Assembly (NCBI GenBank): GCA_032164295.1
Contig: JAJHTX010000005.1
Span: forward strand, 1,984,001-2,048,000
From: Inonotus obliquus
Taxonomy: Eukaryota > Basidiomycota > Agaricomycetes > Hymenochaetales > Hymenochaetaceae
DNA: 64,000 bases
Reading direction: 5' to 3'
The position numbers and the translations under genes were made by a program. Below are positions 2,678 through 23,651 of this stretch, in pieces (the stretch's first letter is position 1; the number at the start of each line of letters is the position of its first letter). The notes beneath the pieces were generated by a model. That model did not search any database and had not been told where the DNA came from. It saw only the letters and a list, made by a program, of their open reading frames with translations.

Positions 2678-4360
2678 GTACCTCCTGTCCCCCGTCTCCT
2701 TCTAACCTCCTCGTCTTCACCATCGTTCCCCACCTCATAGATCCGTCTTCGCACTCCCATCTCTGAGCAACGCATCACTACTGATCCATCTGTAATTAGT
2801 ACAAGAAGCGTCTCCGTGAATTATCAGTCGCTAGCGGTGCTCTGATCATTAATCTGACCATCATCAGTCTGACCACGGCATCGAGAAATAAGAAACCCAG
2901 TGGGAGCAAGCTAGTCTAAGCCACCTGGATGGAGTCCATGAGTGAGTGAATTTGCGAGACGATGGAAGACGACTTACGACTCATGATTGTTCAATCAAAG
3001 GCAACTACAGTCATTCACGCGTCCTTTAAACATACCCCGTTCCTTTGAACACAAGCCATTTGTCGCTCAATTCTTGCTCTATCTCCTCGAAAATTGGTAC
3101 ACACGCTCACAGAATATATATTAATATATGTGCAAATTTTGAGAAAAATCTATCGAGTGGTTCTTTCTCTGATAGCTATTTACCTCGAAAAATGAGCAAA
3201 TTCTGACATTCATGCAGAGGGCAAGTTTTCCTGCACCAATTATTTCCTATAGAATCATGGTTTAACTTATGATATAGCTTTTACACTGTACTAGCAATGC
3301 CCTGGACAAATTTCACGAGATTTGAAGCAGGGGTTACATTTATATCAAGCAGACAAGTGAAAAACCTCAAGAAAATCGAGTGATCGACGCAATTACATAA
3401 TTTGTATTAGCATGTGCATAATGTCACTTGTTGTAAACAAATGAGCAATGAAGGCTACACTTCCCTCCATCTACACATAAAAAATGATACATAGGACATT
3501 AGTACCAAGTATAAAAATGGCAGATTGTATATCTAGGATAAGGGAGGAGTGGGAAGGCAGTATTCAAGCTAGTGTGACAAAGTGTCACGAGTGTTCAAAG
3601 GAGTTGGTTTTGCGTGACAGGGACCCCATTTCTTCACATTCTCATATTTATTTTTTCACTCAATTTTTCGCCACCAAAAAATTACACAAGGTGTATCCTG
3701 CTGGGAGCTATACATACATGTACTTAAAGTGAGAAAAACAATTGTGTGATGGGTGTTATTTTGAAGGATTGAATAGGTGTTTAAAGGATGTGTGAACATC
3801 GGGAGAAAGGCGGATCACATACATTAGCTTACGTTGCATATAATATGCCATAATTAATCTATAGTCATTTAAGGAAATTTTCGGACTTCCGTTCTGGGTA
3901 GATGGTCGATCGAAGTCAGTGTTCGCATATAAGGTAGTACAAGGTGAAGACACACTGTTCAAGTGGTAAATAATCCTTTTACTTTCGTGTATGGACACTC
4001 GAATGACGATTGTGTGCTTCTAAGGAAACATCAGTCTGGTCAATCTCATATAAATCAGAATTACGCCATATTTCTTTATTATTTGCATGGTATCTGAGTT
4101 TTATAATTTTTATTCTGCATGTACTGTCCAATAATCTGCCTATAATTATACAAGCTGAATGCAACCTTGACTTTTCTTTGTCTAATCAATAGACAGATTT
4201 AATTTGGTATATAACAAAAAAATATACCTGTTAGCACTCATTTTCGAAAGATACTATCATTTTACTTGGCGTATATATGCTCACCTTCTCTGTTGGTGTG
4301 CATGCATCTCAGAGAAAAGAGAGAGTTTCGATTATATGGATATTGTTGGGATTGTGTGGT
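2678..4360. other. AT-rich intergenic spacer
   Basis: About 1.7 kb of AT-rich sequence with only short, unrelated open frames. It includes a small ATATATTAATATAT palindrome near 3115. I see no gene, RNA or mobile-element ends. Confidence 0.5.
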
Positions 4361-5749
4361 AGATGATATCCTACACTGCCCGGGATTGTATCTTCTATTC
4401 ATCAACAGCGCTTGATCTGTTTGCAGCTACTTCCACGATCAAATCAGTATCGGTTGATGAAAAATCGCACGTTGAAGAGAACTACGTGCGGCTGAGCTCG
4501 GTATCAACCCCGGTATCCCATTCTACGCTTACCCCATGCTACGGTACGGTCCCATCTACACCTTACAGTATCCACCAGCACACCTAGAGAAACCGTTGGT
4601 CCCATTTCTCAAAGTACCGAACGCCGAGAGTACCGGTACCGAGCGCCAAGAAACCCGGTACCGAGAATACCGAGAGTACCGAGTGCCGAGAAACCCGGTA
4701 CCGAGACAAATTGACAATTCGACATGCTCTCATGACATGGATCGGACGTCTCCCTCTTTGGTATTCATTCCTGATGGTTGGACTATGCATGCCAGTTCTT
4801 TGGAAAAGCTCAGGGTCAGTATCCATTAAGGTTTTCAGGTCCGGTACCACCAGGAACGTGTCGGTATCAATCAGCAGGGGCGCATATCTCTTGTCCTGAG
4901 GACTTTTCATCCAGGGGTACTAGATGCTACGTTTTCAATGGTATCTTGTCCTCCCTAACCCTTTCTTATTGTCCCCCTGATGGCGCTGCAATGTTCACTT
5001 TCCTTGTTACATTTTTATTCAGACTTTTCTTTGTTTTGATCTTCCTTTCTACTTTCTCCTTTTGGATTTATGAGCTAACTACGGTACAGTAGTATAAATT
5101 GTTTATCTCCTTAGAGGGTTCGTTGATTCTTGATCGACGGACCAATCTGGCTAATTCCTCGGTTTGAGGGGTTAATCCAAATTCTACAATACTGGTTATG
5201 GAATTGCTAATCACCTTAGTGGACTGTGTAGCTGATCCGATCTGAAACAACTAGCAACTAACTAATATTGCAGTTGAACCTGATACTATAATCGTACAGT
5301 ATTAAGTCGGCGTGCAGACGCGATTGTTATACTGATTGTTATTCACGATAAGGGAATATCGGGAATCGCACTACGTTGTGAGTAGCTCGTACCGTGCAGA
5401 CAATAGGGAGAACAATCTAGTTGCAATCCGTATTTTTAGCTTTACTTCGATTTCACACAATCGGTTTAGTTCAGCCGTGTCGCTACTGGTAATTTACTGG
5501 CTCGCAAGTAATTGATGTTACGATTTAACTTAGGGACTTATGGTAGGGTCCCTTGACTTGGATTAAACTACTAGGTCGGCTCTACGATGGCCTCCTTATA
5601 TACTAATTTACATGTGTGACGTTACTACCTTGTTACTTACTGTTTATGGTATTTATCTGTTTCTTCCTCTATGATACCTGGTCCGTGCTTTCTCTTTACT
5701 TCCTTCCTCATTTCACTACCTCTGTGTTACTAGCCTCTCTTTGATTAGT
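4361..5749. other. TACCG-rich region with no supported gene
   Basis: Base composition changes here: GGTACC, TACCGA and GGTATC strings appear every few tens of bases from about 4500. Open frames (for example 4536-5092) are short and cross the 40-bp tandem repeat, so they are not convincing genes. From 4980 to 5749 the sequence is again AT-rich without recognisable content. Confidence 0.4.
4637..4706. repeat. 40-bp tandem repeat, two copies
   Basis: A unit beginning TACCGAGCGCCAAGAAACCC (4637) recurs 40 bases later as TACCGAGTGCCGAGAAACCC (4677), and both are followed by GGTACCGAGA. The intervening and preceding bases are built of further ACCGAGA motifs. Confidence 0.75.
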
Positions 5750-6520
5750 TTAGTGTAGTGGGCGGTACCATCTTGTAGATAGGTTTGATCCTTGTGTAGG
5801 TAACGGCACTTGATCTAATTCAGCTATTCTAGGTAATTGCTGAGTCATCTGTCCTTGTATTTCGGGTCTCGTTGGTATCGGTAGGATCGGTCGTGGTACA
5901 GTCAGCCAGTTTCGAATAGTTTGCACTCGTGTATATCCTGGCGTTGTCCTGGCGCGTTGTAGGGTTATCCCTTGTACTCCTTGTAGGTGTATTACTCCGC
6001 CGTGCTGTTCTACCTTTATTTCCATTATGGTATATCCATAAGGTAATCCTCGACTTATGTAATTCATTATCCAATGCCCCCAAGCATATGCAGTTCTCTC
6101 GTTCATTCCGGCTTGGTCTCGCTTGTAGGCAATGTCAACATCTACTATAGCTGTGTCGCATCGTTCGTGTCTTCCTTCCTGTGCTACGTTTCGTATTCCG
6201 ATCATCATTACAAAGTGTCCGGCGTCGTAGGATAATACTCGTATCTCCCTTTCATAAGCCTTTTGCATTTGTTGGTTAGGGTCGTAGGTTAGTTCTACAA
6301 ATCGACGTCGTATCATTATATCGGCTTGTCCGTTCATTATGTCTCCGTACGTGATCTCTCTGATTAATTCTTGCATTAGTCCTCCAGCTAGTTCTTTAGC
6401 TGGGCGGCACGTGTTGCAACATCGTAATATATTGCTTCGCGGTGTCGGAGGAACGATGGGCTGTTCTAGTACTTGTATTACTGCCGCTAACCGCTCTTGT
6501 ATCCAACGTAGGACGCTCAT
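5750..6520 (-). CDS. Orphan protein, 256 aa, unknown function
   Basis: This is an uninterrupted ATG-to-stop frame in a repeat-rich region where other frames are short. I do not recognise the family. The protein is rich in Arg, Gln and Ile and has no obvious signal peptide or membrane helix. It has a CCNTC cysteine group near residue 35 and a mixed alpha/beta-looking core (residues 60-190). The C-terminus is Pro-rich. No introns are needed, which is unusual for the host genes here but usual for mobile-element or captured genes. It lies 1.4 kb from the decayed uL2 gene and is followed upstream (higher coordinates) by minisatellites. It could be a mobile-element accessory ORF, an old viral insertion or a lineage-specific gene; I cannot choose between these. 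Confidence 0.45.
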   Translation of the reverse strand: MSVLRWIQERLAAVIQVLEQPIVPPTPRSNILRCCNTCRPAKELAGGLMQELIREITYGDIMNGQADIMIRRRFVELTYDPNQQMQKAYEREIRVLSYDAGHFVMMIGIRNVAQEGRHERCDTAIVDVDIAYKRDQAGMNERTAYAWGHWIMNYISRGLPYGYTIMEIKVEQHGGVIHLQGVQGITLQRARTTPGYTRVQTIRNWLTVPRPILPIPTRPEIQGQMTQQLPRIAELDQVPLPTQGSNLSTRWYRPLH

Positions 6521-6611
6521 AGTTATTGGCTTATTAATGATGGATAATACTACCTTTCTAACATAAATATCTCCTCCTGTATGTGGTAGCTCTCCAGGTA
6601 ATCTTAGGAGC

Positions 6612-6756
6612 TAGCCTCTAACGTGAGGGCTCGGGTTTCCTCACCCCCTTCTCAGTTCCATCTCAGTCTCATCTCAAGCTTCGTCCCAGTCCCATCCCAG
6701 TTCCGTCTCAAGTGAACCTTCAGAGTTAGCCTCCCATGTGAGGGCTCAGGTTTGCT
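6612..6756. repeat. Direct repeat pair 115 bp apart, enclosing an 11-bp imperfect tandem
   Basis: TAGCCTCTAACGTGAGGGCT at 6612 recurs as TAGCCTCCCATGTGAGGGCT at 6727. Each copy is followed by a C/T-GGGTTT-like tail. Between them, about five imperfect copies of CAGTTCCATCT run from 6653 to about 6709. Confidence 0.7.
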
Positions 6757-6840
6757 TCCCAGTCCAGTCGACACCTTCATCCACCAGTCTCTCCCATTCA
6801 GTTTCTTGCTATACCACCCCGTGCCAGTTGTTTTCTTGCA

Positions 6841-7119
6841 GTACCGACGTGTACCGACGTTTTTCCCACGGTACCGACGTTTTGTTATCCTTTGAATTCT
6901 GCACATCCACCTTTCGTTTCTGTACTGAGCTTTTGTTTTACAACGTTTCTGCACATACCGAACCCGTTCGTTCAAGTACCGACCTGTACCGACATTTTTC
7001 CCACGGTACCGACCCCTTTCTTTCTGTACCGACCTGTACCGACGTTTTTCCCACGGTATTAGACTCTTGTTTTGCTACGTTCTCTCCCATACCGACCTGT
7101 ACCGAAGTTTTTCCCACGT
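6841..7119. repeat. Minisatellite, four copies of a 31-40 bp unit
   Basis: The core GTACCGACCTGTACCGACGT followed by TTTTCCCACGGTA appears at 6841, 6976, 7026 and 7089. Spacers are unequal, so it is an interspersed rather than a perfect tandem array. Confidence 0.75.
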
Positions 7120-7470
7120 TCAAAACTGTCCTTTTCATACCAGAATCATATACTCTTTGCTTCTGGCCCATCCATTCACTCCCCCTTTTCATAGACAACA
7201 AGTACCGTGACCGTACTGGTTAAGTACCGGCACATATTAGCCCTCCCCCACTTAAAACCATACACCCCTCGTCTCGGTACCTCCGGTACTGGACGCGATC
7301 TCGCACATTTAACGTTATCATCAAAGAAGTATCTTATTCCCTTAGCCTTCTCGCCACCAGCAAATAATCATGACGAAGTGATCATATATTCATACACTTT
7401 TGCCTGAGGGTGTCGAAGTTATTGACGATGCATACAAAATAAGACGAGAAGAATGGACAGAGTGTGCCTC

Positions 7471-7902
7471 CTAACTTGATGTATCCTTCGTCCTGACAGT
7501 ACCGCGGAGCAGACCTGTCTATCAAACATCAAACAAAAAAGACACCGATCAGATAACTCTCTTCCAGAGAAAAACAAAAGAGAGAAAGAATATGCACCCT
7601 GCGAGTGGTGATAAGACCGACTTTCTGATCAGGAACAGCGGAACGAGCAATGGTGGAAGCCTTCCCGATATGCTGGTGGTTACCACCACCGTGAGGATGA
7701 TCACCCAAGTTCATGGCAACATATGAAAGGTGTACTTGCAACGCTTAGCCTTGTATTTGTGGTAAGCACGACCTGCCTTATAGAGAGGCTTGTCAATATG
7801 TCCACCTCCAGCAACAATACCAACAGTCGCACAAGCCGAATCAGAAACAGCCTTCTTCGTATCAGATGGGAGATTAGTCCTCATCCTGTTGTCTTCAACC
7901 GA
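7471..7902 (-). pseudogene. 3' part of a decayed ribosomal protein uL2 (yeast L2 / mammalian L8) gene
   Basis: Working uL2 is an essential large-subunit protein at the peptidyl-transferase centre. On the minus strand this stretch reads [20 protein letters not shown], then after a frameshift the family signature [16 protein letters not shown], then VGLITTRR. A phase-0 intron follows (7597 down to 7519, GTGCAT...ATAG), and the last exon reads TGLLRGTVRTKD and stops at 7471. The retained intron shows a DNA-level copy, not a processed pseudogene. A net frameshift between AYHKYKAKR and VAMN destroys the frame. The match ends exactly at the retrotransposon boundary; the missing 5' part is at 21307-21666. 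The working copy must be elsewhere in the genome. Confidence 0.9.
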
Positions 7903-9623
7903 TGAATGTGCGAGAACGCGGCCGGTATTAGAAATACCGGATGAGGGGGGTACGATTTAGATGCGTTGGGAGGGCCGGTACGTGGCGGTACTAAGTCGTA
8001 CAGTCACAGACAAGTCGTCAAGAGAGAATAGTAGGGCCTGGCTGGATTGATGAGTACAGGAGACTATAGGTGACCGCTCAAGAGGAGAGGTATCAGGAGA
8101 CGATCAATACCGAGACGAATCCGTCGATACCGAGTCGTCTGGTGTCCGGTATTACGGTAGAGAGAACGAAGCAGTAGAGGAAGCGAGCTGAGGAGGTGTT
8201 TTTGATAGGACTGGTCGTGAGACGAGAGACGAGGGCGACGAAGACGAGAACGACGACTACCGGTATCGATACCGGTGACTACGAGACGAGACGAACGAAC
8301 GGGGACTTGAACGGGATGAGCAAAACCCGGACCTTCACTCTGGAAGTTCCTCTCAGATTAGCTGGTTTGCTACAGTAGAACATGCAGGCTATAAATACCA
8401 TAATACCGTAGCCATTCAAGATACCAAATGGGGGGTTTTTACAAGTCGAATCGTACCGTAATCCGGTACAAGAAATGGAACATAAGGTCGAATCGAATGT
8501 AAAATTACAATCAGGGGAAACATAAGATGATGAATGAATAAGAAGTTTTATCAGGGGGTAGCTAAGAATAGGGTGGGACGAGACAAGAACCCAATGAAAA
8601 CTCACGACGAGCGATACCGAGGTAGGGCGGCGATACCGACGTCGACCAGCGCTAAATTAAGGACGTGTCTCAAGCTACCGCATGGGCGCTCCTGGCGATG
8701 TCCCTGTCGTAGGAGAAGCACGTCATCCTGATTTACCTTTGTTCCGGTATCATGATCCGTGCGGCGTCAGTCTGGGCGTCTACCGATCGATCGGACGGCG
8801 TGCTCCGATGTAGACGTGTCGGTACAACCCAACCTTGGCAATGGGGTACTCTACCGTTCGGTACCAATCAGTACCCTGGGATCGTCCCTGAGCATCGCTC
8901 TAGCCCCTCGGTATCGACCGGTACGCGTCGCCTGACTCGACTGGGCATTGCTTGGCTTCCCCTCCGAGTCGGATCGATGGCCTCCTCCGAGATCGAAGCA
9001 GCGTACGGAGGACTTGATTCATTTCCCAACCTTCCTCTCGACGTAGATCTCCGATGGCGTGGTCTCGACCTAGCACACGTAACGAACTCCGGTATCGGAG
9101 CGGACCATCGGTATCAACACCGGTATCGTCGGTATCGATGTATGGCGGTTCGGAAGGGCATACCGTCGGGCTTGGAACCTCGACCATGATCCAACTCTTC
9201 GCAGCAACGTATGGCAGACCGAGTGCAGCTTTGTGAGCCTTTTTCTATGGTATGGGCTGTCGAGGGCGTAGTATCGACTAGGTGTGGAGTATTAAGCGTC
9301 GGTATCAGGACGGGTGGACGGTACGGTATCGGTATCATCGGTATCGAAGTCTGGTGGTTCGGTACTATGATGGAAGACGGGCGTAGGGATTGGTGATTCG
9401 GTATTGGCGCAGAAGTGGACCAGTTCTCAATCGCTCTCAGCCTTGTCGAATCGCAGAAGCCTCGTACTTTGTTGGAACCGCAGGCGTAGATAGGACGGCA
9501 GAAGTACCGTGGTCCGAAGAGAAGTAAGAAGCGGTAGAATCGCAGAAGTATTGTTAATTGGAAGAAGCGGTAGAATCGCAGAATTAAGCCCATATCGATC
9601 GTAGCCTCCGGTATTACTCTTTA
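7903..9623 (-). repeat. 3' LTR of the retrotransposon (1721 bp)
   Basis: In window orientation it starts TGAATGTGCGAG and ends ATTACTCTTTA, as do the other two copies. It differs by eye from the 5' LTR by one base (G at 8911, A at 20630) and by a 36-bp tandem unit (copies start 9528 and 9564) that the 5' LTR has only once. It is very rich in CGGTATCG/TACCG. Open frames inside it are conserved in all copies only because the LTRs are nearly identical, and I do not call genes from them. Confidence 0.95.
8259..8276. repeat. Perfect 18-bp palindrome in the LTR
   Basis: ACCGGTATCGATACCGGT is its own reverse complement. It recurs in the 5' LTR at 19978-19995; in the solo LTR the last base is changed. 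It could be a protein-binding site, but nothing here proves that. Confidence 0.7.
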
Positions 9624-9782
9624 TCTCCCCGGTACTTTAGATAGTGACTGTCCCCAGTCACCAACCTTCCGTCTTGATCACGTGGCGAATCGATTGGCGG
9701 GAGAAGATGGGCGTTTATAGACATTTTTGGAGCGCGACTTCGGTAATTGCAGCCTTCCAAACGTAACCTTCGCTTGACCACA
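9624..9782 (+). promoter_or_regulatory. Probable promoter/5' leader of the convergent gene
   Basis: These 159 bases separate the LTR from the ATG at 9783. They contain an E-box CACGTG (9679-9684), an ATTGG (inverted CCAAT) near 9692 and TTTATAG near 9714. Transcription may also begin inside the LTR. This is inference from motifs only. Confidence 0.4.
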
Positions 9783-11446
9783 ATGGCTCGCACAACGCAC
9801 ACCAAGACCTACGGGCGTCACAACCGCAGCAGCAACAACAACAACAACGGCAGGGATGATCGCAACGATGACCAGAACCGCGACGGCGACGGCGACAAAA
9901 ACGACGCGAGTGGTAGACGAGTACCGCGTATCCGCATCCGGCGAACGTCCGTGCTCCTGGCGAGCCTGAGGCGTATCTCCTCAGCTGTCCGGGAACGTTT
10001 GGCATGGTACGTGGAGCATCGTGAGGAGCTGTTGGTGGAGTCTCGTGCTGGAGGAAGAAAACTACCGACGCACTGGCGGCGGTTGAAGAGGTTTTTGTGG
10101 TTCAAGGTGTGCATCGGTATTAGATTGTCTGGCTTCTCTCTGTACTGATTGGTCGATAATAGTTGTTGTTCGAGCGTACCATCCGAGAGTACTACGGTAC
10201 GGTACCGGTAGCGGCGCGACGTATGGGAGACGTGGACTGGCGCGGGTATTGGACGGTAGTTCGTGCCTGGAGTGAGCTGCGCTGGATGGTGCAGCTCAAT
10301 TTGCCTAGGGCCGTACGCTCGGTCATCCGCAGGTTGAGGCCGTACGGGTACTCGTCGTCGACGGAGATCCTCCCCCTCCCATGTTGGTTACCTGACCTAC
10401 CACCTACGGGAGGGGAGATGGACGCGTTTCTGTACCCTACGGGAACGGACGAGGGGGTCGCTGAGTACATACCGCCCGAGCGTACACCGGTACCGACGTG
10501 GGAACGACCTGAGCGATGGTTTCCACAAATACCGGCGTCGATCAGCGAAGTACCGGAGTCGGTACCTGTCAATACCGAGATCGGCGAAGACGACGAGGAT
10601 GACGATGATGACTACGACGGAGACGATTTTGACGACGGTAATGAGGGCAACGGCGGACCAGCCATACCGAGGCGCTTATCAAAGGGTAAGGGGAAGGCGG
10701 TACCGCGCCGTCAAACACGACTGCCGCCGCACCGACCTCGACGCGTGTGGTCTCCCTCCTCGGAATCAGTCGGTATTTCACGAGTGAGGGCTGCGCAGCG
10801 TCGGTATGCGAGGCAGCGGCATCAACAACAGCAGCAGCAGCAACGGCGGCCATGGTTTGGCGAGGCGTCGGACAACGGACCGTCGGAGTTCGTACCGATG
10901 GCCGGCCTTCCTTCGGAAGGTTCTTCTTCTCGGCGTCGCGAAGCACGGTCCACTCCGTCAGAACCTGGGCCTTCGAATTGGCGTTTCGGTACACACCAAC
11001 AACGACAACAACAACAACAACAACAACAAACAAATCCATACGAGTATTTACTCGACGATCCCTTGCTAATCCCTCACAGCCACGACTTTTTCTCTCCTTC
11101 ACAGGCGGCTCTGCTCGACGTCGACTCTGCTTTCTTCATACCGGTACAGTCTCAGCAACAGCAACAACAGCAACTACCGATCGATCGCTGGTGGCCGTAC
11201 GACCAAAACGAGACGTTCGTCGTCAGTCGTGCGCAGTCGGTATCCGTGGAGCGCGTAAGGGAAATGCTGGGCCAGCTGGCAGAACAACGGGAGCGGGTGG
11301 CGAAAGGTCGAGAGGAGGGTGAAGCGTCGACCCCTTCTGGAGTCGAAGGCGCTACCGAGGCGTCTACCGAAGGGGAAGCGCCAACGACGACAGCGACGAC
11401 GGCGAGCGAGACCGCTACCGAGGCGGTAAAAACGGCAACGACGGCA

Positions 11447-11477
<31 letters not shown>

Positions 11478-13144
11478 TGGCAGACGTCGGTACCGCAGTC
11501 GAGGTACCGTCGTCGACAGTTATTTCAGAGGAGACGGAACTGGAGCGGGAGACGAGGCTGACCGCGCTGGCCGACGAGGAGCAGCATAGGCGGGACTTGG
11601 AGGCGCTGGACGAGCTGCTGGAGCAGCAGAGGATCATGCGGGAGAGGATTGCGAAGCGCGAAGCTGAAGCTGCGCGCAGGGCGGCGAAGGCAAGGAAGCC
11701 TGCTCCCGTTACCGAGGAGAGCGCACCAGCCACAGCAGCAGCAGCAGCAACAGCAGCTGCAAGGACTGTAACCCCCACGACGGCTGTGCCAGAGGACTCC
11801 AGCCCCGCTACCGAGGTCCCAGCTGCAGTGGCAACAGCAGCAACAGCAGCAACTGCAACACTGGAGGCTGCTCCAGACGATGCTACCGCCACTACCGAGG
11901 CTCCCGTAGACATGCCTCCCAGTGAGCTCCAGCAGCAACAACAACAGCAGCAGGAGCTACCGCTCTTCCTTCCAGAGTCGCTTGCACATACCGACGAGCA
12001 GCTGCAGCAACAACAGCAGCTTCCTACTCCAGAGCCCGTCGACGTCCCTTCCACGGCTACCGAGCCGACTCAGCTGCAGCAGCAGCAACAACAAACACCA
12101 GAGGAGCCCGTCGAGTACGTTACCGACGTGGTAGAGGACGCTATGCAGCAGTCGCCTGCTCAGCCTCCTTCGGTAGAGGTGCCAGTACAGCAGCAGCAAC
12201 AACAACAGCAGCAGCTTGAGACGCCTGCTCCGTCATCGTCGGTACCGCTGCCTCCACAGCAACAACAACAGCTACCGCAACCATCGCGGGTCCCTCCCTC
12301 AGCACGTCGAGCACGGCCTTCGAAGAAGAAGCAGCCGCCTCCTTCTCAGCAGGAGCCATCACCTCCACGGCAGCAGCAACAGCAACAGCAACAGCGGCTG
12401 CGTACCGCCGAAGAGCTGGCAGAGGAGCACGGCCTCGTCATTCTCAACAGCATGGGGAAGTCTCGGTACCCAGGTCCTCCGCCGGTACCGTACGCCTATG
12501 CGTGCGAGAGGTGTCGGAAACACAACGCGGAGTGTGTGGGGCGGGAGGGGAAGTCTTGCTTCCTCTGCACCCTCAAGTGGCGTGTGAGGTGCGAGCACGC
12601 GTCTCATCGTAGGTCGCAGGCTCCAGCAACAGAAGCAACAGCAGCAACAACAACAGCAGCTGCTACCGCCGTGCCACCTGTCTCTCGCCCTCCACCGTCG
12701 GTACCGTCATCCGCCCCACCTCCAGCAGCAGCAGCAGCAGCAACAGCAGCAAAGCCGACCGCTACCGCCAAGACTACCGCGAAGAGGAAGAGGACTGAGG
12801 CCTCGGTAGAAGCACCACCCCCTCCCAAGCGCAGGCGCGCCCCTCCCTCGTCCAAGCAGCAGCAACAGCAACAACAGCAACAGCAACAGCTGCAGCGGCC
12901 TGTGGCCGGACCGAGCCAGTTCCCAGGCTCGTTCGAGGACATGCGCCGCTCCCTCTCCATGGATGGGGCGAGCGGCCGTGTCAGGCGACTGGCGGAGGCA
13001 CAACGGGACATCCGCGAGGTGTACCGCCTCGGCTCACAGCTCACGCGGCTCGCTGAGGGCACGCTGTCGCGGATCAACGTGTTGCTGTCAGAAGTGGAAG
13101 GGGAAGAGGATGAGGATGAGGATGAGGATGAGGACGAGGAGTGA
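9783..13144 (+). CDS. Retrotransposon-borne, convergently encoded Zn2Cys6-like glutamine-rich protein, 1101 aa
   Basis: Probably a nuclear DNA-binding or regulatory protein; the role is inferred. Exon 1 runs from ATG 9783 to 10106 (108 codons). A 56-nt intron (10107-10162) has GTGTGC, an internal CTGAT branch-like motif and AATAG. Exon 2 continues in phase to TGA at 13142-13144. The N-terminus is basic with an Asn run. The middle has more than ten Gln runs, Thr/Ala repeats and a Glu-rich helix (about residues 440-530). Residues 889-918 hold six cysteines spaced C-x2-C-x6-C-x7-C-x2-C-x7-C, within the range of fungal Zn2Cys6 binuclear clusters. Then come a basic patch, a helical segment and an acidic Glu/Asp tail. 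The gene lies opposite to gag-pol, between pol and the 3' LTR, and ends 391 bp from the pol stop. No frame damage is visible. It could instead be a captured host regulator. Confidence 0.75.
10107..10162 (+). other. Spliceosomal intron in the convergent gene
   Basis: GTGTGC...AATAG, 56 nt, containing CTGAT about 20 nt before the acceptor. The unspliced sequence has in-frame stops after codon 108. Removal joins two long open frames in phase. On the genomic-RNA strand of the element the intron is reversed and cannot be spliced, so it would survive retrotransposition. Confidence 0.7.
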
Positions 13145-13535
13145 AAGGTCGGCGCAGAGCTCGGTACGTCGGTAGTCGACGGTATCGAGGTGTTTGTTTC
13201 GTGTGCGATCGGACTGTCCGCGTGTTTCTGTTCTGAAAAAAAAAATCCCTGCCTTTGATAAAGTAACCAGTAGATAAAAGACTTGTAGTTTTATAATACG
13301 GTTGCAAAAAAAGTAGTGGTTTCGTACGAAAAGAGGGTGAAATAAGAATGGAGTGCAGAAGGTGAAGTATAAGAGGATTGGCATACCGATACCGAAGGAA
13401 GCTTCGGTATCGACGAATAACATAATATATGGTTAGACGCATAATGGGCGGAATCATAGGACTTCAAAAAAAAAATGAATCATAAGGCATGGAAATTGTC
13501 ATAAGGCATAGAGCATTGTCAGACGGTATCGGTAT
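13145..13535. other. Convergent gap between the extra gene and pol
   Basis: 391 bp separating two converging stop codons. It holds several A-runs (13236, 13305, 13464) and AATAAG-like strings that may serve as 3'-end signals for either transcript. No ORF is supported. Confidence 0.5.
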
Positions 13536-16500
13536 TCAATCCGAATCAGACGCTGAGTCGTCTTCGGTGTACCGATGTGGTGTCATCATTTCGTGCTCAT
13601 CCTCGCCCGACTTCAGAAGTTCTTCGATGGGAACAGAAATCTCCGAACGGGGAAAATAAGGAATCAAACGAAATGCAGCCACACTGAAACGGGATACCGA
13701 ACCATCCAACTCCATAATAATATACGTACCGGACCTAGTCCTCCTCACTACCACGTAGGGACCCAAATACCGAGGTTTCGTCTTCCTATCCAACTCCTTC
13801 TCGACTCGAGTGTTACGCAGTAGCACGAGGCTACCGGGGTCGAAATCGTAGTCTTTGATCGTATGCTTGTGGACCTCGGCGAAATGTCTGGCGTACCGGT
13901 GGCGAGCGTCTAAGACGATACGGGCTACTCGATCGAGGTCTTCCTGTCGCTTCTGCAGCTGTCTGGCACGCACGGAGATCAATTCGGTGGTCGAAAGCGG
14001 TCTACCGAAGTCTTCTACGAGATAGGTGGCTTCGGCGAGATCGAATGGCAATACTGGTTCGACTCCATGTACCATGTAGTAAGGCGACATTCCGGTATCC
14101 TTACCGATGGTAATTCGTTCGGCCCAAAATACCGAGTAGGCGTGTTCGTGCCATTTCGTCGCATTACCGCCGCTGGTCTTCATGAGGGCCTCTTGCACAT
14201 CGTAGTGTCGACGTTCCACGATCCCATTAGCACGAGAGTTGTAAGCGGAAATACGGATGTGGTTGATGTGATACCGATCGCGCAACCAGTCTAGCGCCAT
14301 GATGAACGGAGTACCGTTATCGGTAACGAGCTCTGGACAAGCGCCATACCGACATAACAGGTCCTGGAAGATAAACTGACCGATCGTATGACCAGTCTGC
14401 TTGCGTAGCAACCTAAACTCGGGATAACTAGTGAGCGAGCATCGAGCTTGGACAATATAATGGTATCCTCCAGACGCAGGCATGTGCTTTGTGTCGATAT
14501 GTATCTTCTGGAATATCGGCGCTACCGACGGTACTGATGGCGGTATCAACACCTTCGTCGTCTGTCGGTATTGACATTCGTCGCAGGTCCTGACGAAATA
14601 TTTGACATCGTCGCTGACAGATGGCCACCAGAACCTTTCGAGTAAGCGTTGACGTACGACGTAGACTCCTTTGTGACCGAGGTTGTCGTGCGCATCCTGG
14701 ACGAGGTTCCAGCGTTTCGCCAGTTCCACCACTAACTGAGGGGATTCCGATCGAGTCTTTCTCCAGAGTCTTCCCTTCTTCGTGAAAAATCCCGAGGCGT
14801 ATCGAACGAAGCCTTGGAGGTGCTTCTCCGGTATGTCTTCTGGTCGAATACCGGACTCGAGGAAGCGTCGAACCTGCCCCAGTCGAATTTCCTTCTTCTG
14901 GGCTGCATCGGTCTTCGGAAACTCCAACCTTGGCGATGCATCGGTTTCGCCGGCGGTATATACCTCCCCTAATCCCTTCGAGACGCAACTTATCGCATGG
15001 GTCCTAGCGGGGTTGACTGTCGAACTCGAGGGTGAAATACCGACTAATACCGAGGCGACGGTGCCAAGTACCGAAGTCATTACGAAAGCATAGGCATCGT
15101 CGATCCACTCCTCGAAGTCGTCTTCTTCTACTGGGTCTTCAGGGGCGGCTCTCCTTCGAGATAGTCCGTCGGTACAGGTGAATTCGGAAGCCGGTACATG
15201 TCGTAGTTTGAAGTCGAATAATAGGATACCGGCTATCCAGCGATTGATGGTAGCGTTTGGCTGGAGGTCTGGATTATTGATCATGCCTTTGACGTAGGCG
15301 GCGTCCATTTCTACCACGAAGGTCTTGACTCCATAGATGAATAACCGTACCGCTCGCAAGGCACGAAAGAGTCCGAACAATTCTATCTTCGGCTGTGAGT
15401 ACTGCGCTTGTACCGGCGACCAATTTATTGAACCGAATCGATTGATACGTCGTCTACCGTCAGGGTGTTCTTGTCCGAGGGTCCAACCTACTCCGATGAT
15501 TGACGAATCTACCGCGAGCACCACCTCTCGTTCCGCCGAATAGTCGATAGCTGACAACGCCGGGCACTTGATTACTGCTTCTTTGAGCTTGTCCATGGAC
15601 TCCTGTTCGTCGTCTCCCCACTGAAAATTTAAGTTCTTTCGTGTTAACTGCGTGAGTGGTCTGGCCATCATCGAGTAACTTTTGATAAAAACGCGTAATA
15701 CTCCTGCGGTACCGAGGAATCCTCGAACTTCGGTAAGCGTCTGGCAAGGCGGCCAGTCTCGAACTCGTTGTATCTTCGAATCGTCCGCTTCACGTCCGTT
15801 GTAGGTGAGTTTGTTACCGAGAAATACCGCTGCGTCTGAGCAGGCCTGGAACTTCTTGCCTGAAAACGTCCCTCCTACTACTCTGACTCGTTGCAACACT
15901 CTGTTGACGTCGCATAGGTGCTCGTACACAAACCTGCGAATACCGGGGTTGTCTGGCAGGGTTTCGAAAGTACCGTCATCGTTCTCATACCGAGCGAATC
16001 CTCCTAGGGTGATTACGTCATCAGCATACGGTAGAGCAACGTCCGGTATCTCTTCATTTAGAATAAAGGTTACGTCACCGTGCATAATCTGCAGCGAATT
16101 CGTATACCCCATGGGCAGTACCTTGAGTCGGTAGGCACCCAGAGGCGTTTGGATCGTGGTAAGGTCGCGGGATCTCTCGTCTAGTGCGCGTTGGTCGAAC
16201 GCAATCGCTAAGTCGAGCACGGTATAGCATGATCTCCCTCCACAACCGTCCACTAGGGTTTCGATGTTCGGCGGTACCGCTGAATCGCGAATTGATACTC
16301 CGTTTAGGTCCTGCAGATCGATTACGAATCGCAGCGAATCTCCATCTTTCTTGACCAGACAGAACCAACGGGATCGGTACGACGAATTCGATTCTTCTAT
16401 GACGCCAGCTTGTATCTTGTCCCGTAATAACTGGATCGTCTGCTTGAGTATACCGGGCGGTATTGGTATGTTCTTGCGCACCCACGGTACATGCGGTACC

Positions 16501-17273
16501 GTAGGCATTCGTACAGGATCGAAGTAAAGGGGGTCGAAGGTACCGCGTTCGGATTCGGTCCAAGCGAAGGCTCCTTCCTGCAACATCATCAGGTTGACTA
16601 CGAGGTCCTCTTCGTCTGGCCACAGAAATCCATCGGGATTTAGCTCGAGTGCGTCCATTCGTTCTTGAGTTAGTTTCGTTGTCGGTACGAAGGGTATAGG
16701 TTTCGTCGGTAGAGTTGGCATTCCTCGCAGTGGATCAGGATGTCTTCGTCTGACTATCCTGAATTCCTCCGGCAAGACTCCTGGAACAGGCCTCACCTTC
16801 TGCGCTACCTTTTTATATGCAAATACTTTGAGGTCGGTACCGTCGTTGGGATAGTCGAGCACCACCGAATCGAAGGAATCGTAATACTTGTCGAGCATTA
16901 GAGTGTTTTCTGATAATAAATACCTGAGTCGATTCGAGAGAAGAGACGGCGAGAAATCGATAAATGTTTTTCGAATGTTTTCAGTGTTTCTTGATGAACG
17001 ATACTGGCTACCGACGTGGTCGAGCATAGAGGAGTGGGTATGGTCGTCGGTACCGAGGATAGAGAGAATCGATTTGAGCGAAGAGTCGAGTGGATTTGGG
17101 ATATCGGTATCGAAATGGTTAAGGATTCTGGAGTTGGTAACATGTCTTGCCGTACGGTTTAGGAGCACCGAGAACTCAGGATCGTCTCGCCGACCACTGG
17201 TCAGTTCCTCGACTGGGCAAAACCCGAGTCCGGTACACGCGTGTAGTTTCGTACTCCGGTAGCGACCATACAT
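13536..17273 (-). CDS. Retrotransposon pol: reverse transcriptase, RNase H, integrase
   Basis: Intact frame of 1245 codons, expressed as an extension of gag by -1 frameshifting rather than from its own ATG. Around residues 270-480 is the RT: RFVIDLQDLNGVS, then LPMGYTNS and the catalytic YADDV. RNase H follows (AVDSSIIGVGW, QPKIELFGLFRALR, MDAAYVKG). The integrase has a His-Cys zinc finger (HDNLGHKG ... CDEC) and the D-D-E triad in HIDTKHM, VTDNGTPF and NGIVERRH. A GPY/F-type module (RYLGPYVVVRR) comes near the C-terminus, and I see no chromodomain. The order RT-RH-INT is that of Ty3/gypsy. The product would copy genomic RNA and insert the cDNA. Confidence 0.95.
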   Translation of the reverse strand: MYGRYRSTKLHACTGLGFCPVEELTSGRRDDPEFSVLLNRTARHVTNSRILNHFDTDIPNPLDSSLKSILSILGTDDHTHSSMLDHVGSQYRSSRNTENIRKTFIDFSPSLLSNRLRYLLSENTLMLDKYYDSFDSVVLDYPNDGTDLKVFAYKKVAQKVRPVPGVLPEEFRIVRRRHPDPLRGMPTLPTKPIPFVPTTKLTQERMDALELNPDGFLWPDEEDLVVNLMMLQEGAFAWTESERGTFDPLYFDPVRMPTVPHVPWVRKNIPIPPGILKQTIQLLRDKIQAGVIEESNSSYRSRWFCLVKKDGDSLRFVIDLQDLNGVSIRDSAVPPNIETLVDGCGGRSCYTVLDLAIAFDQRALDERSRDLTTIQTPLGAYRLKVLPMGYTNSLQIMHGDVTFILNEEIPDVALPYADDVITLGGFARYENDDGTFETLPDNPGIRRFVYEHLCDVNRVLQRVRVVGGTFSGKKFQACSDAAVFLGNKLTYNGREADDSKIQRVRDWPPCQTLTEVRGFLGTAGVLRVFIKSYSMMARPLTQLTRKNLNFQWGDDEQESMDKLKEAVIKCPALSAIDYSAEREVVLAVDSSIIGVGWTLGQEHPDGRRRINRFGSINWSPVQAQYSQPKIELFGLFRALRAVRLFIYGVKTFVVEMDAAYVKGMINNPDLQPNATINRWIAGILLFDFKLRHVPASEFTCTDGLSRRRAAPEDPVEEDDFEEWIDDAYAFVMTSVLGTVASVLVGISPSSSTVNPARTHAISCVSKGLGEVYTAGETDASPRLEFPKTDAAQKKEIRLGQVRRFLESGIRPEDIPEKHLQGFVRYASGFFTKKGRLWRKTRSESPQLVVELAKRWNLVQDAHDNLGHKGVYVVRQRLLERFWWPSVSDDVKYFVRTCDECQYRQTTKVLIPPSVPSVAPIFQKIHIDTKHMPASGGYHYIVQARCSLTSYPEFRLLRKQTGHTIGQFIFQDLLCRYGACPELVTDNGTPFIMALDWLRDRYHINHIRISAYNSRANGIVERRHYDVQEALMKTSGGNATKWHEHAYSVFWAERITIGKDTGMSPYYMVHGVEPVLPFDLAEATYLVEDFGRPLSTTELISVRARQLQKRQEDLDRVARIVLDARHRYARHFAEVHKHTIKDYDFDPGSLVLLRNTRVEKELDRKTKPRYLGPYVVVRRTRSGTYIIMELDGSVSRFSVAAFRLIPYFPRSEISVPIEELLKSGEDEHEMMTPHRYTEDDSASDSD

Positions 17274-19546
17274 TTCCTGTCCGGCTCGTTCGGATCAGTA
17301 AGCGTAATATGCTGCTCACCGCTTAAGAAGTCCTTGGTCTCGCATTCGGTAATGGCGAAGAAAGGTCTCCCAAGTAAAACCTCAAACGGCGCTTTTTCGA
17401 CCACGTGAACCTGAAGCCTCAGCTCAATACCGGCTACCGAGAACTTCGCGTTATGGATCATCCCCTTCGTGGACGACCTTCCGGTATCGGCTGTTTCGAG
17501 TACCATTTTCTTGTCGCTCCTTAGGTGCACTCCCAGCTTCTCCCACACGTCTTCCCTAATCAGACACATGACGGCTCCTTGGTCCAAGATCGCCACACAC
17601 TCGACGGAATCTTCGATACCGACTCGAACGGTACGCAAGGGCAGCGTGTCTTCTGCAGCCGGTAGACTACCGAACAATATCGACGACGGTTCTTCGGTAT
17701 CGAATGGATCCTCGTCCTCGCCAACACTGACTATATGCGCATCTCCAGGGCTGACCCTTCTCGCGGTAGTCAGGTCCTTCATCTGCTTCCTCAGCTCGTA
17801 CGATAGTGCTAATAGCTCTCGTTGGGTGACCGTGATGGGTGCTTCTAACGAACGAGCAAGGACACGTTGCGCCAGGGTTGGGTCTTCGATAGGGGCCACC
17901 GATCGATACTGCGGCGGCTGCGGATTAGTTGATGGTTGACTCGACCGCTGCGCGTACCGTGGCACTTCTTTAGGGGCATCAGTGCGAGGTGTGACTGGGG
18001 TCTGCTTGTTCGATCCGGTATTGGCTGGGACTTGGGGGTTGTTAGGCCTCGAGACGCGGGGAATTTCGACGCCATCGAATTTGGCCTTTCGTACCGCAGA
18101 AGCTTTCTTCTTGGCCTCGTTAAGCATGACTTCGAGACGGGCCACATCTTGGTCCCCTTCCCAATCGCGGGAAACGTCGGTAACGGCGGCGACCATATTA
18201 GAACCGTCGGTATTCGATACCGGTTGCGGTCCCAATTCGACGAGGTTTACTGAAGACTGGGCGGAGGACAGGTAGTCTATACGTTCCATCATGTTTCTAC
18301 CGGGTAGGGAGTTCGAAGGATAAGAATTGTCGGGTAGGGTAACACGTCCTTCGGTATTTCGTTTACAACGTCCCAGGGTAATGTATTCTGCGACCTTCGG
18401 ACAGGAACGAATGAAATGAGTAGGATCGCTGCAGAAGGCACAGCCCCCGGGGCGAGACTGCGGAGGTGGCTGTACGCTGGGTCTTCTTCCCAACTGCTCG
18501 ATCTGTAATTGAAGACTCCTTACGGTATCCCACACGTCATCTTCTTTCTTGACAGCCGGCTTCGCAGCTTCGGCTAGTCCGGTACGGGGTGCATCGTCGA
18601 AGAAGTCGGTACCGAGAATGTGTTCTGCGTGCTTCACGATCTGATCTACCGAATAGACTCTTCCAGGTTCTGGGTCGGTCTCCTTCGTCTCCAGCCGCAG
18701 ACGTAGACGTTCTCGAAAATTCCCTGTGAAGGCGGTGAAGAAGCTTCTTGCTGCTTCGTCCGCGGAGAAGGTACCGAGGTTTCGTAGGTAACTGGACCTC
18801 ACTAAATATTCGTTTCGGTAGTCGGCCAAATCGAGACGAGACCTGAACCCCTTTCTACGCCAGGTCTCTACGAGTCGATTGACGTCTTCTCTCGTGAACC
18901 TAGACCCTTGGGTTAACGTAGGGTAGAACGAGCGGATAGCTTCCTTGGCCCGGGCCCAATCAGCGGCGTCGGAGGCAACTCCAGGGGCGGTCTCCCATAG
19001 CTCAGCTACCGACGATGAGGCGTAATATTTGGCGTACCGAATCTTCTGGGCGTCGTCCAAACCGCAGTCCACAGCTATAAATTCGATATCTTCGAGGTAC
19101 CGGAACAGTTCTAACGGCTCGCTACCGTCGAACGACGGGGCATCCCTCGCTCCACGCCTGGGAGGTCTAGCTGCCATGGCGTTACGGAGGTGAGGGGGTG
19201 GGCCTCTTACTGGAGGAACTATGGTGGCGTTTCTGGGGCGTGACGGGGTGTGAGTGGTGTTGGGGTTTGGTGACTGTGATGTGATAGTCGGAGGGGTGCT
19301 GCGGCGTTCGGTACCGCTACGGTTGGTAGAAGTCTGGTTAGCCAGCGAATTCTCACTCGGTAAGATGAACTCTGGGGCTTCGTCAACAGGGGACGGGCTT
19401 GCCGAGAACAATTCTCTACCGGTAGAAGACGGTGGTAACGAACTCAATACCGAGACAGTACTAGAGGCGGCAGTTACTTCTTCTGAGATGGAAAGAGAGG
19501 CGAACGATAATTCCAGTGACTCGTCGTCTGAATACGATTCTTCCAA
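17201..19546 (-). CDS. Retrotransposon gag-protease polyprotein
   Basis: The frame covers a Ser-rich acidic N-terminal extension, a gag core beginning near APSFDGSEPLELFRYLEDIE, a CCHC zinc knuckle (CAFCSDPTHFIRSC) and a retropepsin domain. The protease has the active-site variant ILDQGA and a LLGRPFF flap-like motif. It would form virus-like particles, bind RNA and process the polyprotein. The frame opens at TTG 19546 with no ATG upstream; the first in-frame ATG is at 19177, just before the gag core. Translation may start there (659 aa) or at a non-AUG codon. The 3' end overlaps pol by 73 nt. Confidence 0.9.
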   Translation of the reverse strand: MEESYSDDESLELSFASLSISEEVTAASSTVSVLSSLPPSSTGRELFSASPSPVDEAPEFILPSENSLANQTSTNRSGTERRSTPPTITSQSPNPNTTHTPSRPRNATIVPPVRGPPPHLRNAMAARPPRRGARDAPSFDGSEPLELFRYLEDIEFIAVDCGLDDAQKIRYAKYYASSSVAELWETAPGVASDAADWARAKEAIRSFYPTLTQGSRFTREDVNRLVETWRRKGFRSRLDLADYRNEYLVRSSYLRNLGTFSADEAARSFFTAFTGNFRERLRLRLETKETDPEPGRVYSVDQIVKHAEHILGTDFFDDAPRTGLAEAAKPAVKKEDDVWDTVRSLQLQIEQLGRRPSVQPPPQSRPGGCAFCSDPTHFIRSCPKVAEYITLGRCKRNTEGRVTLPDNSYPSNSLPGRNMMERIDYLSSAQSSVNLVELGPQPVSNTDGSNMVAAVTDVSRDWEGDQDVARLEVMLNEAKKKASAVRKAKFDGVEIPRVSRPNNPQVPANTGSNKQTPVTPRTDAPKEVPRYAQRSSQPSTNPQPPQYRSVAPIEDPTLAQRVLARSLEAPITVTQRELLALSYELRKQMKDLTTARRVSPGDAHIVSVGEDEDPFDTEEPSSILFGSLPAAEDTLPLRTVRVGIEDSVECVAILDQGAVMCLIREDVWEKLGVHLRSDKKMVLETADTGRSSTKGMIHNAKFSVAGIELRLQVHVVEKAPFEVLLGRPFFAITECETKDFLSGEQHITLTDPNEPDRKCMVATGVRNYTRVPDSGFAQSRN
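17219..17225 (-). promoter_or_regulatory. Probable -1 ribosomal frameshift site G GGT TTT
   Basis: The heptamer is read in the gag frame as tcG-GGT-TTT, 15 nt before the gag stop and inside the gag/pol overlap. A one-base backward slip enters the pol frame. It matches the X-XXY-YYZ rule for slippery sites. I did not fold the downstream RNA. Confidence 0.65.
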
Positions 19547-19621
19547 AGCGGCTCGATTGCGTTGCCAGGCGTTCTCTCGACGTCGAGTCAGTTTGAACCC
19601 TCCCTCGCGGTGGGCTCTAGT

Positions 19622-21306
19622 TGAATGTGCGAGAACGCGGCCGGTATTAGAAATACCGGATGAGGGGGGTACGATTTAGATGCGTTGGGAGGGCCGGTAC
19701 GTGGCGGTACTAAGTCGTACAGTCACAGACAAGTCGTCAAGAGAGAATAGTAGGGCCTGGCTGGATTGATGAGTACAGGAGACTATAGGTGACCGCTCAA
19801 GAGGAGAGGTATCAGGAGACGATCAATACCGAGACGAATCCGTCGATACCGAGTCGTCTGGTGTCCGGTATTACGGTAGAGAGAACGAAGCAGTAGAGGA
19901 AGCGAGCTGAGGAGGTGTTTTTGATAGGACTGGTCGTGAGACGAGAGACGAGGGCGACGAAGACGAGAACGACGACTACCGGTATCGATACCGGTGACTA
20001 CGAGACGAGACGAACGAACGGGGACTTGAACGGGATGAGCAAAACCCGGACCTTCACTCTGGAAGTTCCTCTCAGATTAGCTGGTTTGCTACAGTAGAAC
20101 ATGCAGGCTATAAATACCATAATACCGTAGCCATTCAAGATACCAAATGGGGGGTTTTTACAAGTCGAATCGTACCGTAATCCGGTACAAGAAATGGAAC
20201 ATAAGGTCGAATCGAATGTAAAATTACAATCAGGGGAAACATAAGATGATGAATGAATAAGAAGTTTTATCAGGGGGTAGCTAAGAATAGGGTGGGACGA
20301 GACAAGAACCCAATGAAAACTCACGACGAGCGATACCGAGGTAGGGCGGCGATACCGACGTCGACCAGCGCTAAATTAAGGACGTGTCTCAAGCTACCGC
20401 ATGGGCGCTCCTGGCGATGTCCCTGTCGTAGGAGAAGCACGTCATCCTGATTTACCTTTGTTCCGGTATCATGATCCGTGCGGCGTCAGTCTGGGCGTCT
20501 ACCGATCGATCGGACGGCGTGCTCCGATGTAGACGTGTCGGTACAACCCAACCTTGGCAATGGGGTACTCTACCGTTCGGTACCAATCAGTACCCTGGGA
20601 TCGTCCCTGAGCATCGCTCTAGCCCCTCGATATCGACCGGTACGCGTCGCCTGACTCGACTGGGCATTGCTTGGCTTCCCCTCCGAGTCGGATCGATGGC
20701 CTCCTCCGAGATCGAAGCAGCGTACGGAGGACTTGATTCATTTCCCAACCTTCCTCTCGACGTAGATCTCCGATGGCGTGGTCTCGACCTAGCACACGTA
20801 ACGAACTCCGGTATCGGAGCGGACCATCGGTATCAACACCGGTATCGTCGGTATCGATGTATGGCGGTTCGGAAGGGCATACCGTCGGGCTTGGAACCTC
20901 GACCATGATCCAACTCTTCGCAGCAACGTATGGCAGACCGAGTGCAGCTTTGTGAGCCTTTTTCTATGGTATGGGCTGTCGAGGGCGTAGTATCGACTAG
21001 GTGTGGAGTATTAAGCGTCGGTATCAGGACGGGTGGACGGTACGGTATCGGTATCATCGGTATCGAAGTCTGGTGGTTCGGTACTATGATGGAAGACGGG
21101 CGTAGGGATTGGTGATTCGGTATTGGCGCAGAAGTGGACCAGTTCTCAATCGCTCTCAGCCTTGTCGAATCGCAGAAGCCTCGTACTTTGTTGGAACCGC
21201 AGGCGTAGATAGGACGGCAGAAGTACCGTGGTCCGAAGAGAAGTAAGAAGCGGTAGAATCGCAGAATTAAGCCCATATCGATCGTAGCCTCCGGTATTAC
21301 TCTTTA
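19622..21306 (-). repeat. 5' LTR of the retrotransposon (1685 bp)
   Basis: Same ends as the 3' LTR (TGAATGTGCGAG...ACTCTTTA in window orientation). It is 36 bp shorter, with one copy of a GAAGCGGTAGAATCGCAGAA unit instead of two. In element orientation it ends CACATTCA, and the gag frame opens about 75 nt later. Confidence 0.95.
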
Positions 21307-21666
21307 CCGAATGCCCAATAATTGCCTGAAGTACGCGCAAGAGCTCCACGATCCCCAACCTTCTCCTCGACATTACACGCGACCGCCCCTTCTGGAAGTT
21401 GCACGAGCGGTATGATGTTGCCAACAGTCAAAGCAGCTTTCTTGCCATAGTAGATGAAAGTACCAGTTTTCCACCTACAGTAGCGATGAAGGTCTCTTAT
21501 GAAGCTTGTACCGCCAAGGGTCACACATGGTAAATGACACGAGCAAGAGGGGCACCACGTCCTGGGTCGTGAATGGTTTCTTTTACGAAACTGCAGACAT
21601 AGCCCTTGTGTTCTGCAAAATCGAGGTTACAAAGCTTGGCGGGCACTTTACGGTGTGAGTGTGCGC
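21307..21666 (-). pseudogene. 5'/middle part of the decayed ribosomal protein uL2 gene
   Basis: Minus-strand translation in three frames gives consecutive uL2 segments: [14 protein letters not shown] with [19 protein letters not shown], then DPWRYKLHK, then [36 protein letters not shown] and TSGNY, ending at IGHS. At least four small indels break the frame. It covers roughly residues 20-140 and joins perfectly to the fragment at 7471-7902 when the retroelement and one TSD copy are removed: IGHS continues into [16 protein letters not shown]. It is flanked on the other side by the solo LTR, which also sits inside the gene. A few more bases of the match may continue beyond 23388. Confidence 0.88.
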
Positions 21667-23387: not shown

Positions 23388-23651
23388 GCGCATACAAGTG
23401 AGTGATGTCACAATCCAGGGTACATAAACTCGCCTGCCTCCCAGTCAATCAGTCATGTCGTCTCTCTTTCCATCACCCTCACCATCTCAGCACACTTACA
23501 CCCGCTCACAGAGCCATCTCTTCTCGACCAAAGCACGGTGATGAGGATTACATTAAGTGACTGACGAATGCATTTATTCTGTTCTGACGCGAGTGCCACC
23601 TGACACACTCATAGCTCTTCCTCTTCCTCCCACCATTAACTCTGACCAACT

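Follow-up and report, generated by a model that had tools for sequence, protein, structure and literature searches.

The 64-kb window analyzed here is the whole stretch of DNA under study, from contig C5 of the Inonotus obliquus genome (G000:C5:1984001-2048000; coordinates are window positions). It holds a Ty3-type long terminal repeat (LTR) retrotransposon with two features of concern: a large spliced gene encoded antisense to gag and pol, and the five-base word CGGTA (or its complement TACCG), which this element and a gag-only relative carry along their full length, in either orientation, coding sequence included. The element itself is young and autonomous. Its LTRs are long and direct, with 1 mismatch across the first 1645 bp and then a 36-bp length difference; the target-site duplication is short; the Pfam domains come in the Ty3-type order of protease, reverse transcriptase (RT), RNase H and integrase; and the gag-protease and pol frames are open, both convergent to the antisense gene (Table 1). 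The scope is this one genome, 36.07 Mb in 30 contigs, and copies are named by contig (C2, C5, C9 and so on).

The antisense gene and its copies

On the plus strand, two exons lying between pol and the 3′ LTR encode a product of 1101 amino acids (aa), as the first-pass annotation had claimed from the letters alone, and the intron, cysteine cluster, Gln runs and acidic tail that it described are all present. The cysteines are spaced C-x2-C-x6-C-x7-C-x2-C-x7-C, there are ten Gln runs of at least 4 residues, and the tail reads EGEEDEDEDEDEDEE. Zn2Cys6 domains (PF00172) have the spacing pattern C-x2-C-x6-C-x5-12-C-x2-C-x6-8-C, into which the cluster fits, here and in the C9 and C11 copies as well.

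Whether the gene recurs convergent to pol in other copies of the family had been raised in the same annotation, and it does: a protein search of the genome found exon 2 or parts of it at seven loci, the gene being convergent to pol at 6 of the 7 (that is, beside pol at 5 of the 6 further loci). The C12 and C2 copies are about 100% identical with open frames, so that the frame is open in 3/3 near-identical copies (C5, C12, C2). The C9 copy is 97% identical with one stop; the C11 copy is 86% identical, begins at residue 195 and has two stops; the C10 copy, a piece without pol, covers residues 1-279 at 82% identity with one stop; and in C13 there are two pieces with an LTR insertion between them. 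A weak extra match to exon 2 lies at C11:1927642. All six cysteines are retained in C9 and in the C11 copy, and the intron ends are retained in all 5 intron-holding copies (C5, C12, C2, C9 and C10). By strand logic, antisense coding would let the gene retain its intron through retrotransposition, because the splice signals would not be in the genomic RNA.

Measured against three diverged copies, C9, C10 and C11, the antisense gene shows purifying selection. When substitutions were relocated randomly to sites matched for base and CpG class (2000 runs), synonymous changes were in excess in C9 (43 versus 24.3 expected among 77 changes, reached in 0/2000 runs; omega 0.26), in C11 (96 versus 68.6 among 203 changes, 0/2000; omega 0.34) and in C10 (44 versus 34.6 among 111 changes, P 0.03; omega 0.47), and excluding motif bases left the excess almost the same. 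Substitution between copies is accordingly non-neutral, which had been set as a test of the predicted gene. Exon 1 alone in C9 (5/10 synonymous, P 0.16) and the C13 pieces alone (7/17, P 0.13) gave no significant excess. For comparison, omega against C9, C11 and C13 is 0.16-0.20 for pol and 0.12-0.27 for gag; since C9, C10 and C11 hold stops, the values for the antisense gene blend constrained and free time.

Pfam gave no family at E <= 1 on either exon, the best match in a PDB sequence search had E 0.14, and 0 of 157 candidates in the protein database were homologues of the Cys region at E <= 1. In the control for that search, pol matched 1591 proteins at E <= 0.001 among 7990 scored, so the database is rich in Ty3 pol proteins; named sources among the nearest pol relatives are Rhodofomes, Pleurotus, Leucocoprinus and Candolleomyces. 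Pattern searches for pol relatives returned 1 and 93 stretches in viral_contigs and 81 in genome_contigs, none of them confirmed. The antisense gene is coding, and its product is probably a nuclear, Zn2Cys6-like DNA-binding protein.

CGGTA saturation and its maintenance by selection

In one LTR plus the internal region there are 205 CGGTA/TACCG sites versus 26.5 expected from dinucleotides, the top over-represented 5-mer, at a density of about one site per 57 bp across 11.7 kb. Gaps between sites have a median of 39 and a maximum of 263, and 0 of 58 bins of 200 bp are empty. Broken down by region, the dinucleotide expectation is exceeded in the LTR (40 versus 5.4), at 9624-13144 (59 versus 5.4), in pol (63 versus 9.0) and in the gag region (35 versus 5.2). 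Synonymous-codon shuffles give the same picture for pol (63 versus 14.8, maximum 25), exon 2 (54 versus 10.6, maximum 20) and gag (37 versus 8.4, maximum 16); the short exon 1 has 2 versus 0.5. Control stretches of the window are near expectation at 30-40 kb (12 versus 10.5), 40-50 kb (19 versus 13.6) and 50-64 kb (19 versus 17.0); the flanks of the element are enriched as well (41 versus 12.1 at 1-7902; 47 versus 12.3 at 21308-30000), and they contain more LTRs of the two saturated families. Compositional or mutational artefact is hardly credible as an explanation: base composition can bias short words, but the dinucleotide and synonymous-codon controls, together with the silent-site conservation described below, speak against it.

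The base before the motif is most commonly T (95/205), and A is rare after it (13/205). A pattern of three closely spaced CGGTA words occurs at 1456 + 1184 places in the genome versus 54 + 49 for the reversed pattern; among the matches listed, these places are all on C1, and many repeat strings from the two LTRs. Compared with random placement, spacing in the main element varies less at 250, 300 and 500 bp (P <= 0.048), not at 100-150 bp, and in the gag-only relative it varies more at 100-200 and 300 bp; evenness is not used as an argument here. The dyad CGGTACCG accounts for 28 half-sites versus 14.1 expected in the main element and 32 versus 21.5 in the gag-only relative, which is only suggestive.

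Selection maintains the CGGTA sites of the main element. With the C5 sites as reference and non-motif bases matched for base and CpG class as comparison, changed motif bases number 14 versus 34.0 expected in C9, 74 versus 119.3 in C11 and 40 versus 55.9 in C13; in the near-identical C12 (2 versus 1.4) and C2 (1 versus 2.1) the counts are uninformative. The deficit extends to 4-fold sites (C9, 3 versus 12.6, P 0.003; C11, 23 versus 41.6, P 0.0003), to the LTR (C9, 1 versus 6.1, P 0.025; C11, 7 versus 18.5, P 0.003) and, in C11, to the remaining coding positions (27 versus 38.4, P 0.03). Outside the motif, CpG decay in C11 has altered 196/859 C and 142/858 G. Such fast decay in old copies suggests cytosine methylation of the family, which would give it a reason for anti-silencing.

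Related elements in the same genome

The gag-only element, with its own LTR, lies in C13 (L017, about 1-5663) and has 99 CGGTA sites versus 8.9 expected. No such antisense gene is present among its open reading frames (ORFs) of at least 90 codons, and saturation without the gene is compatible with a binder acting in trans. Its gag and the main gag share 55% identity across 231 aa, and of the 11 and 9 sites in the main and relative gags (64% nucleotide identity, 228 codons) 5 are common, so that, as judged from the alignment, some sites have been kept and some turned over. The two LTRs share about 106 bp at their end, which fits mobilization of the gag-only relative by the same integrase. LTR pieces of this relative also lie at window 4473-7311, interrupted by an insertion at 5122-6563, and an additional LTR of the main family, 98.1% identical, lies at 21667-23387, directly past the element.

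A sister Ty3 family, whose pol is 51% identical over residues 151-733 (44% over 1078 aligned residues), also has an antisense gene between pol and LTR, different from the main one; it is split by a single 58-bp intron, includes a Cys-rich stretch and overlaps the end of the sister pol. Among 13 copies its frame is full in 7, by anchor strings, and shortened or broken in 4; in the other 2 the anchor string differed and the frame was not readable. The product has no Pfam match and no database homologue among 438 candidates, and selection was not detected (10/28 variants synonymous versus 8.6 expected, P 0.34). There is no motif saturation in this family (2 versus 3.0 and 3 versus 2.6 expected): its pol has 1 CGGTA site versus 2.9 in synonymous shuffles, and over 1034 aligned codons the main pol has 53 sites versus 1. 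The top sister-family 6-mer, GAAGAA (32 versus 8.2 expected), is a run of purines whose excess extends to the window outside the main element (52 versus 27.9). A search for sister-family LTR flanks gave 0 matches and is uninformative, since the LTR start in the query was guessed.

A third Ty3 family has 2 CGGTA sites versus 4.6 expected. The 1.44-kb repeat at 5122-6563 is 96.9% identical to a stretch downstream of this family's RT on C1, and it holds a 256-aa ORF without Pfam match (window 5750-6520, minus strand; L062 628-1518, minus strand), on the same strand as that RT. Further sense-strand ORFs without Pfam match lie downstream of the RT at L062 1967-2278 and 1519-2007 (minus strand), one of them with a hydrophobic stretch. 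In pol relatives from other species, a dipeptide proxy for the motif gave z 3.46 for the closest protein (P0001), and the 116 proteins P0005-P0120 reach 4.18. The relatives P0001-P0004 have 70-86% identity in pol.

Table 1. Features of the element and of loci compared with it (window positions unless a contig or locus is named)
Feature	Position	Strand	Basis or remark
Whole element	7903-21306	-	Ty3-type LTR retrotransposon
Target-site duplication CCGA	left copy 7899-7902, right copy 21307-21310	.	
3′ LTR, 1721 bp	7903-9623	-	40 CGGTA/TACCG sites
Purine-rich GGGGAGA adjoining 3′ LTR, possible polypurine tract	9624-9630	-	sequence reading; putative role
Antisense gene, exon 1, 108 codons	9783-10106	+	
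Antisense gene, intron, 56 bp	10107-10162	+	GTGTGC...CTGAT...TAG
Antisense gene, exon 2 including stop	10163-13144	+	
Zn2Cys6-like cluster, residues 889-918	12503-12592	+	sequence reading
Two basic stretches, KRKR and KRRR, possible nuclear localization signals	12782-12838	+	sequence reading; putative role
Predicted 45-residue helix, possible dimerization coil	12965-13099	+	AlphaFold2, pLDDT (predicted local distance difference test) 71-94 by blocks; putative role
pol: RT, RNase H, integrase zinc-binding domain	13536-17273	-	Pfam
gag with aspartyl protease and DUF4100 matches	17201-19546	-	Pfam
Primer-binding-site-like stretch	19608-19619	-	starts TAG in the window copy, unlike TGGAGCCCACCG of C12, C2 and C9; putative role
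5′ LTR, 1685 bp	19622-21306	-	
One LTR plus internal region, motif-counting span	7903-19621	.	
Sister-family antisense gene, 256 aa, spliced	L048 49-456 and 515-877	-	
Possible host relative of the antisense gene	C11:1926736-1927962 (L027 595-1824)		two six-Cys Zn2Cys6-like clusters, Gln run, AGPSxFxG stretch

A possible self-recognition system and its alternatives

The reading that we favor, tentatively and with somewhat less than even confidence, is self-recognition. The antisense protein would act in trans by binding CGGTA sites in elements of its own family, and by analogy with plant VANC this binding would counter host silencing and leave the element accessible to transcription throughout. 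CGG is the classical half-site of Zn2Cys6 proteins, and the spacing of its Cys cluster places the antisense protein in the class that reads CGG, which makes it a candidate for the element-encoded reader. The spread of the motif through coding sequence argues for a function of the whole element and not of a promoter. The first-pass annotation had supposed a Zn2Cys6-type regulator acting perhaps on the element's LTR. Of this, the regulator stays plausible, its spacing and the six cysteines kept in C11 being set against the Pfam and AlphaFold2 results below, but the LTR alone has become the less likely target, since a conserved 5-mer containing CGG saturates the element in its entirety. A stronger version appears possible though more doubtful: that the entire element has been rewritten with a 5-bp self-tag, read by its own antisense Zn2Cys6-type protein, as a means of telling self from non-self against silencing, and that this arose independently of VANC, with kingdom, element class and protein family all different.

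Several results weigh against self-recognition. Taken alone, the Cys cluster scores 12.7 bits against Pfam Zn_clus, for a cut-off of 21 (E 0.15). AlphaFold2, run on 3 sequences, left most of the Cys region at pLDDT < 50 with no confident fold, and Foldseek found nothing at E <= 0.001. The loop CRKHNAEC of the cluster is without the Lys pattern usual in Zn2Cys6 proteins. On the side of the motif, conservation in C13 is not significant in any subclass (4-fold sites, 15 versus 19.1, P 0.20; LTR, 2 versus 3.8, P 0.31; other coding positions, 16 versus 21.8, P 0.12), nor is it at the remaining coding positions in C9 (6 versus 10.0, P 0.13). Moreover, the sister family has an antisense gene without a saturating motif, so that having such a gene in this position does not entail having a motif.

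Comparison with known systems is useful in both directions. The VANC anti-silencing proteins of the Arabidopsis VANDAL transposons offer, in the parts of these reports available to us, a family-specific short motif that has accumulated, a candidate element-encoded binder and other elements that carry the motif, all of which have counterparts here (PMC5735166, PMC10398659). VANDALs, as described in the same portions, are DNA transposons with motifs of 8-9 bp in non-coding tandem repeats, and binding and methylation loss were shown for VANC (PMC5735166, PMC10398659). The fungal element, unlike VANDAL, is an LTR retrotransposon whose 5-mer is scattered across the LTR and coding sequence, with sites interspersed and mostly in coding sequence and not arranged as tandem repeats in non-coding DNA; for its protein, such activities would follow by analogy only.

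From the sections of the plant literature at hand, Ty3 elements of plants can carry an antisense ORF (aORF) between pol and the 3′ LTR to which no function has been assigned (PMC7264820, PMC11963269). The plant aORFs (Grande gene23, RIRE2, Retand with TRP28) lie in the same place and orientation and are found in most intact copies, as here, so the parallel drawn earlier with the Tat lineage is sound for position and orientation; their product is likely nuclear and DNA-related, a further likeness, and those sections mention no element-wide motif saturation (PMC7264820, PMC11963269). The TRP28 domain PF04195 was not found in the antisense gene by Pfam on both exons at E <= 1. The window element differs from the plant ones also in its fungal host, its own 56-bp intron and its Zn2Cys6-like cluster. 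HBZ of human T-cell leukemia virus type 1 (HTLV-1) is a bZIP protein, unlike the antisense product, whose exons have no Pfam domain at that threshold. HBZ and the deltaretroviral antisense proteins resemble it in being encoded antisense near the 3′ end of a retroelement, to judge from the portions of these papers that were available (PMC7264820, PMC11963269). For fungi, the survey article PMC3248453 (LTR Retrotransposons in Fungi) has 0 occurrences of the word "antisense", and our searches of the open-access literature turned up neither an antisense gene of Zn2Cys6-like type nor a saturating motif described for a fungal LTR element. With Gal4-type fungal Zn2Cys6 factors the antisense protein has in common the spacing of the six Cys, a helix predicted to follow the cluster and a candidate target containing CGG; unlike them, it has its cluster near the C-terminus (889-918 of 1101), scores below the Pfam cut-off and is encoded by a retrotransposon, with sites over the whole element and not at a promoter.

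Of the alternatives, the one that survives best, although we consider it unlikely, is that two separate things are involved: the antisense protein would serve in the nucleus as an accessory factor of the HBZ or Retand kind, with transcription or RNA as its target, and CGGTA would be read by a host DNA-binding protein which the element exploits. The sister family, with its gene and no motif, fits this, as does the sub-threshold Zn2Cys6 assignment; antisense genes at this place elsewhere have no reported saturating motif in the parts of the literature covered (PMC7264820, PMC11963269). Against it, gene and motif occur in the same family, the cluster type matches the CGG core, and host sequence is not generally enriched, the window at 30-64 kb being near expectation.

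Distinctly less probable is self-nesting, in which the element's integration machinery or Gag would read CGGTA and steer new copies into old ones as a safe haven. Insertion sites were read from 96 outer flanks among 100 listed of 129 matched, with T at -10 excluded by the search pattern. In these 96 flanks the center of the 4-bp duplication is CG in 78, TG in 9, CA in 8 and AG in 1, a preference that self-nesting would accommodate, and the LTR inside the C13 antisense gene was inserted at a TACCG-type site; the gag-only relative, moreover, has Gag and an LTR end in common with the main element. But among the same listed flanks TACCG directly precedes the insertion in just 6 of 96, most others being different NCGN sites, and a role as target leaves unexplained why copies preserve their own sites at silent positions.

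That the antisense gene is a passenger captured from the host, either with a host function or without any for the element, is improbable. The possible source at C11:1926736-1927962 has two six-Cys clusters, which score 17.0 and 16.6 bits against Zn_clus, above the antisense cluster and below the cut-off, along with a Gln run and an AGPSxFxG stretch. The similarity is weak, though (cluster E 0.001 in a single pairwise comparison and 0.007 when the genome was searched), and selection acts on the gene in copies of the element, with which it is also repeated. Very improbable, finally, is that CGGTA works in RNA, as a packaging signal or structure. The motif does run all along the transcript, with word and complement both frequent. 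Yet over the whole element 124 of 243 sites have CGGTA on the plus strand and 119 the opposite (unevenly by region, 26 to 14 in the LTR and 24 to 35 in the antisense gene), and neighboring sites are in the same orientation 105 times versus 81 opposite, contrary to hairpins; near-equal orientations with an excess of same-orientation neighbors point to a signal in double-stranded DNA and not to RNA pairing.

Even without a link to the protein, a 5-mer kept at silent sites over 11.7 kb is an unusual constraint on a mobile element. If self-recognition holds, this would be a retrotransposon whose DNA is marked in every part by a protein-plus-tag system of its own, and sequence-specific anti-silencing would have arisen more than once and be writable into coding sequence through synonymous choice. 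The escape of mobile elements from silencing in fungi could then be tested directly, and the antisense genes of Ty3 elements, so far unexplained, would gain a candidate function.

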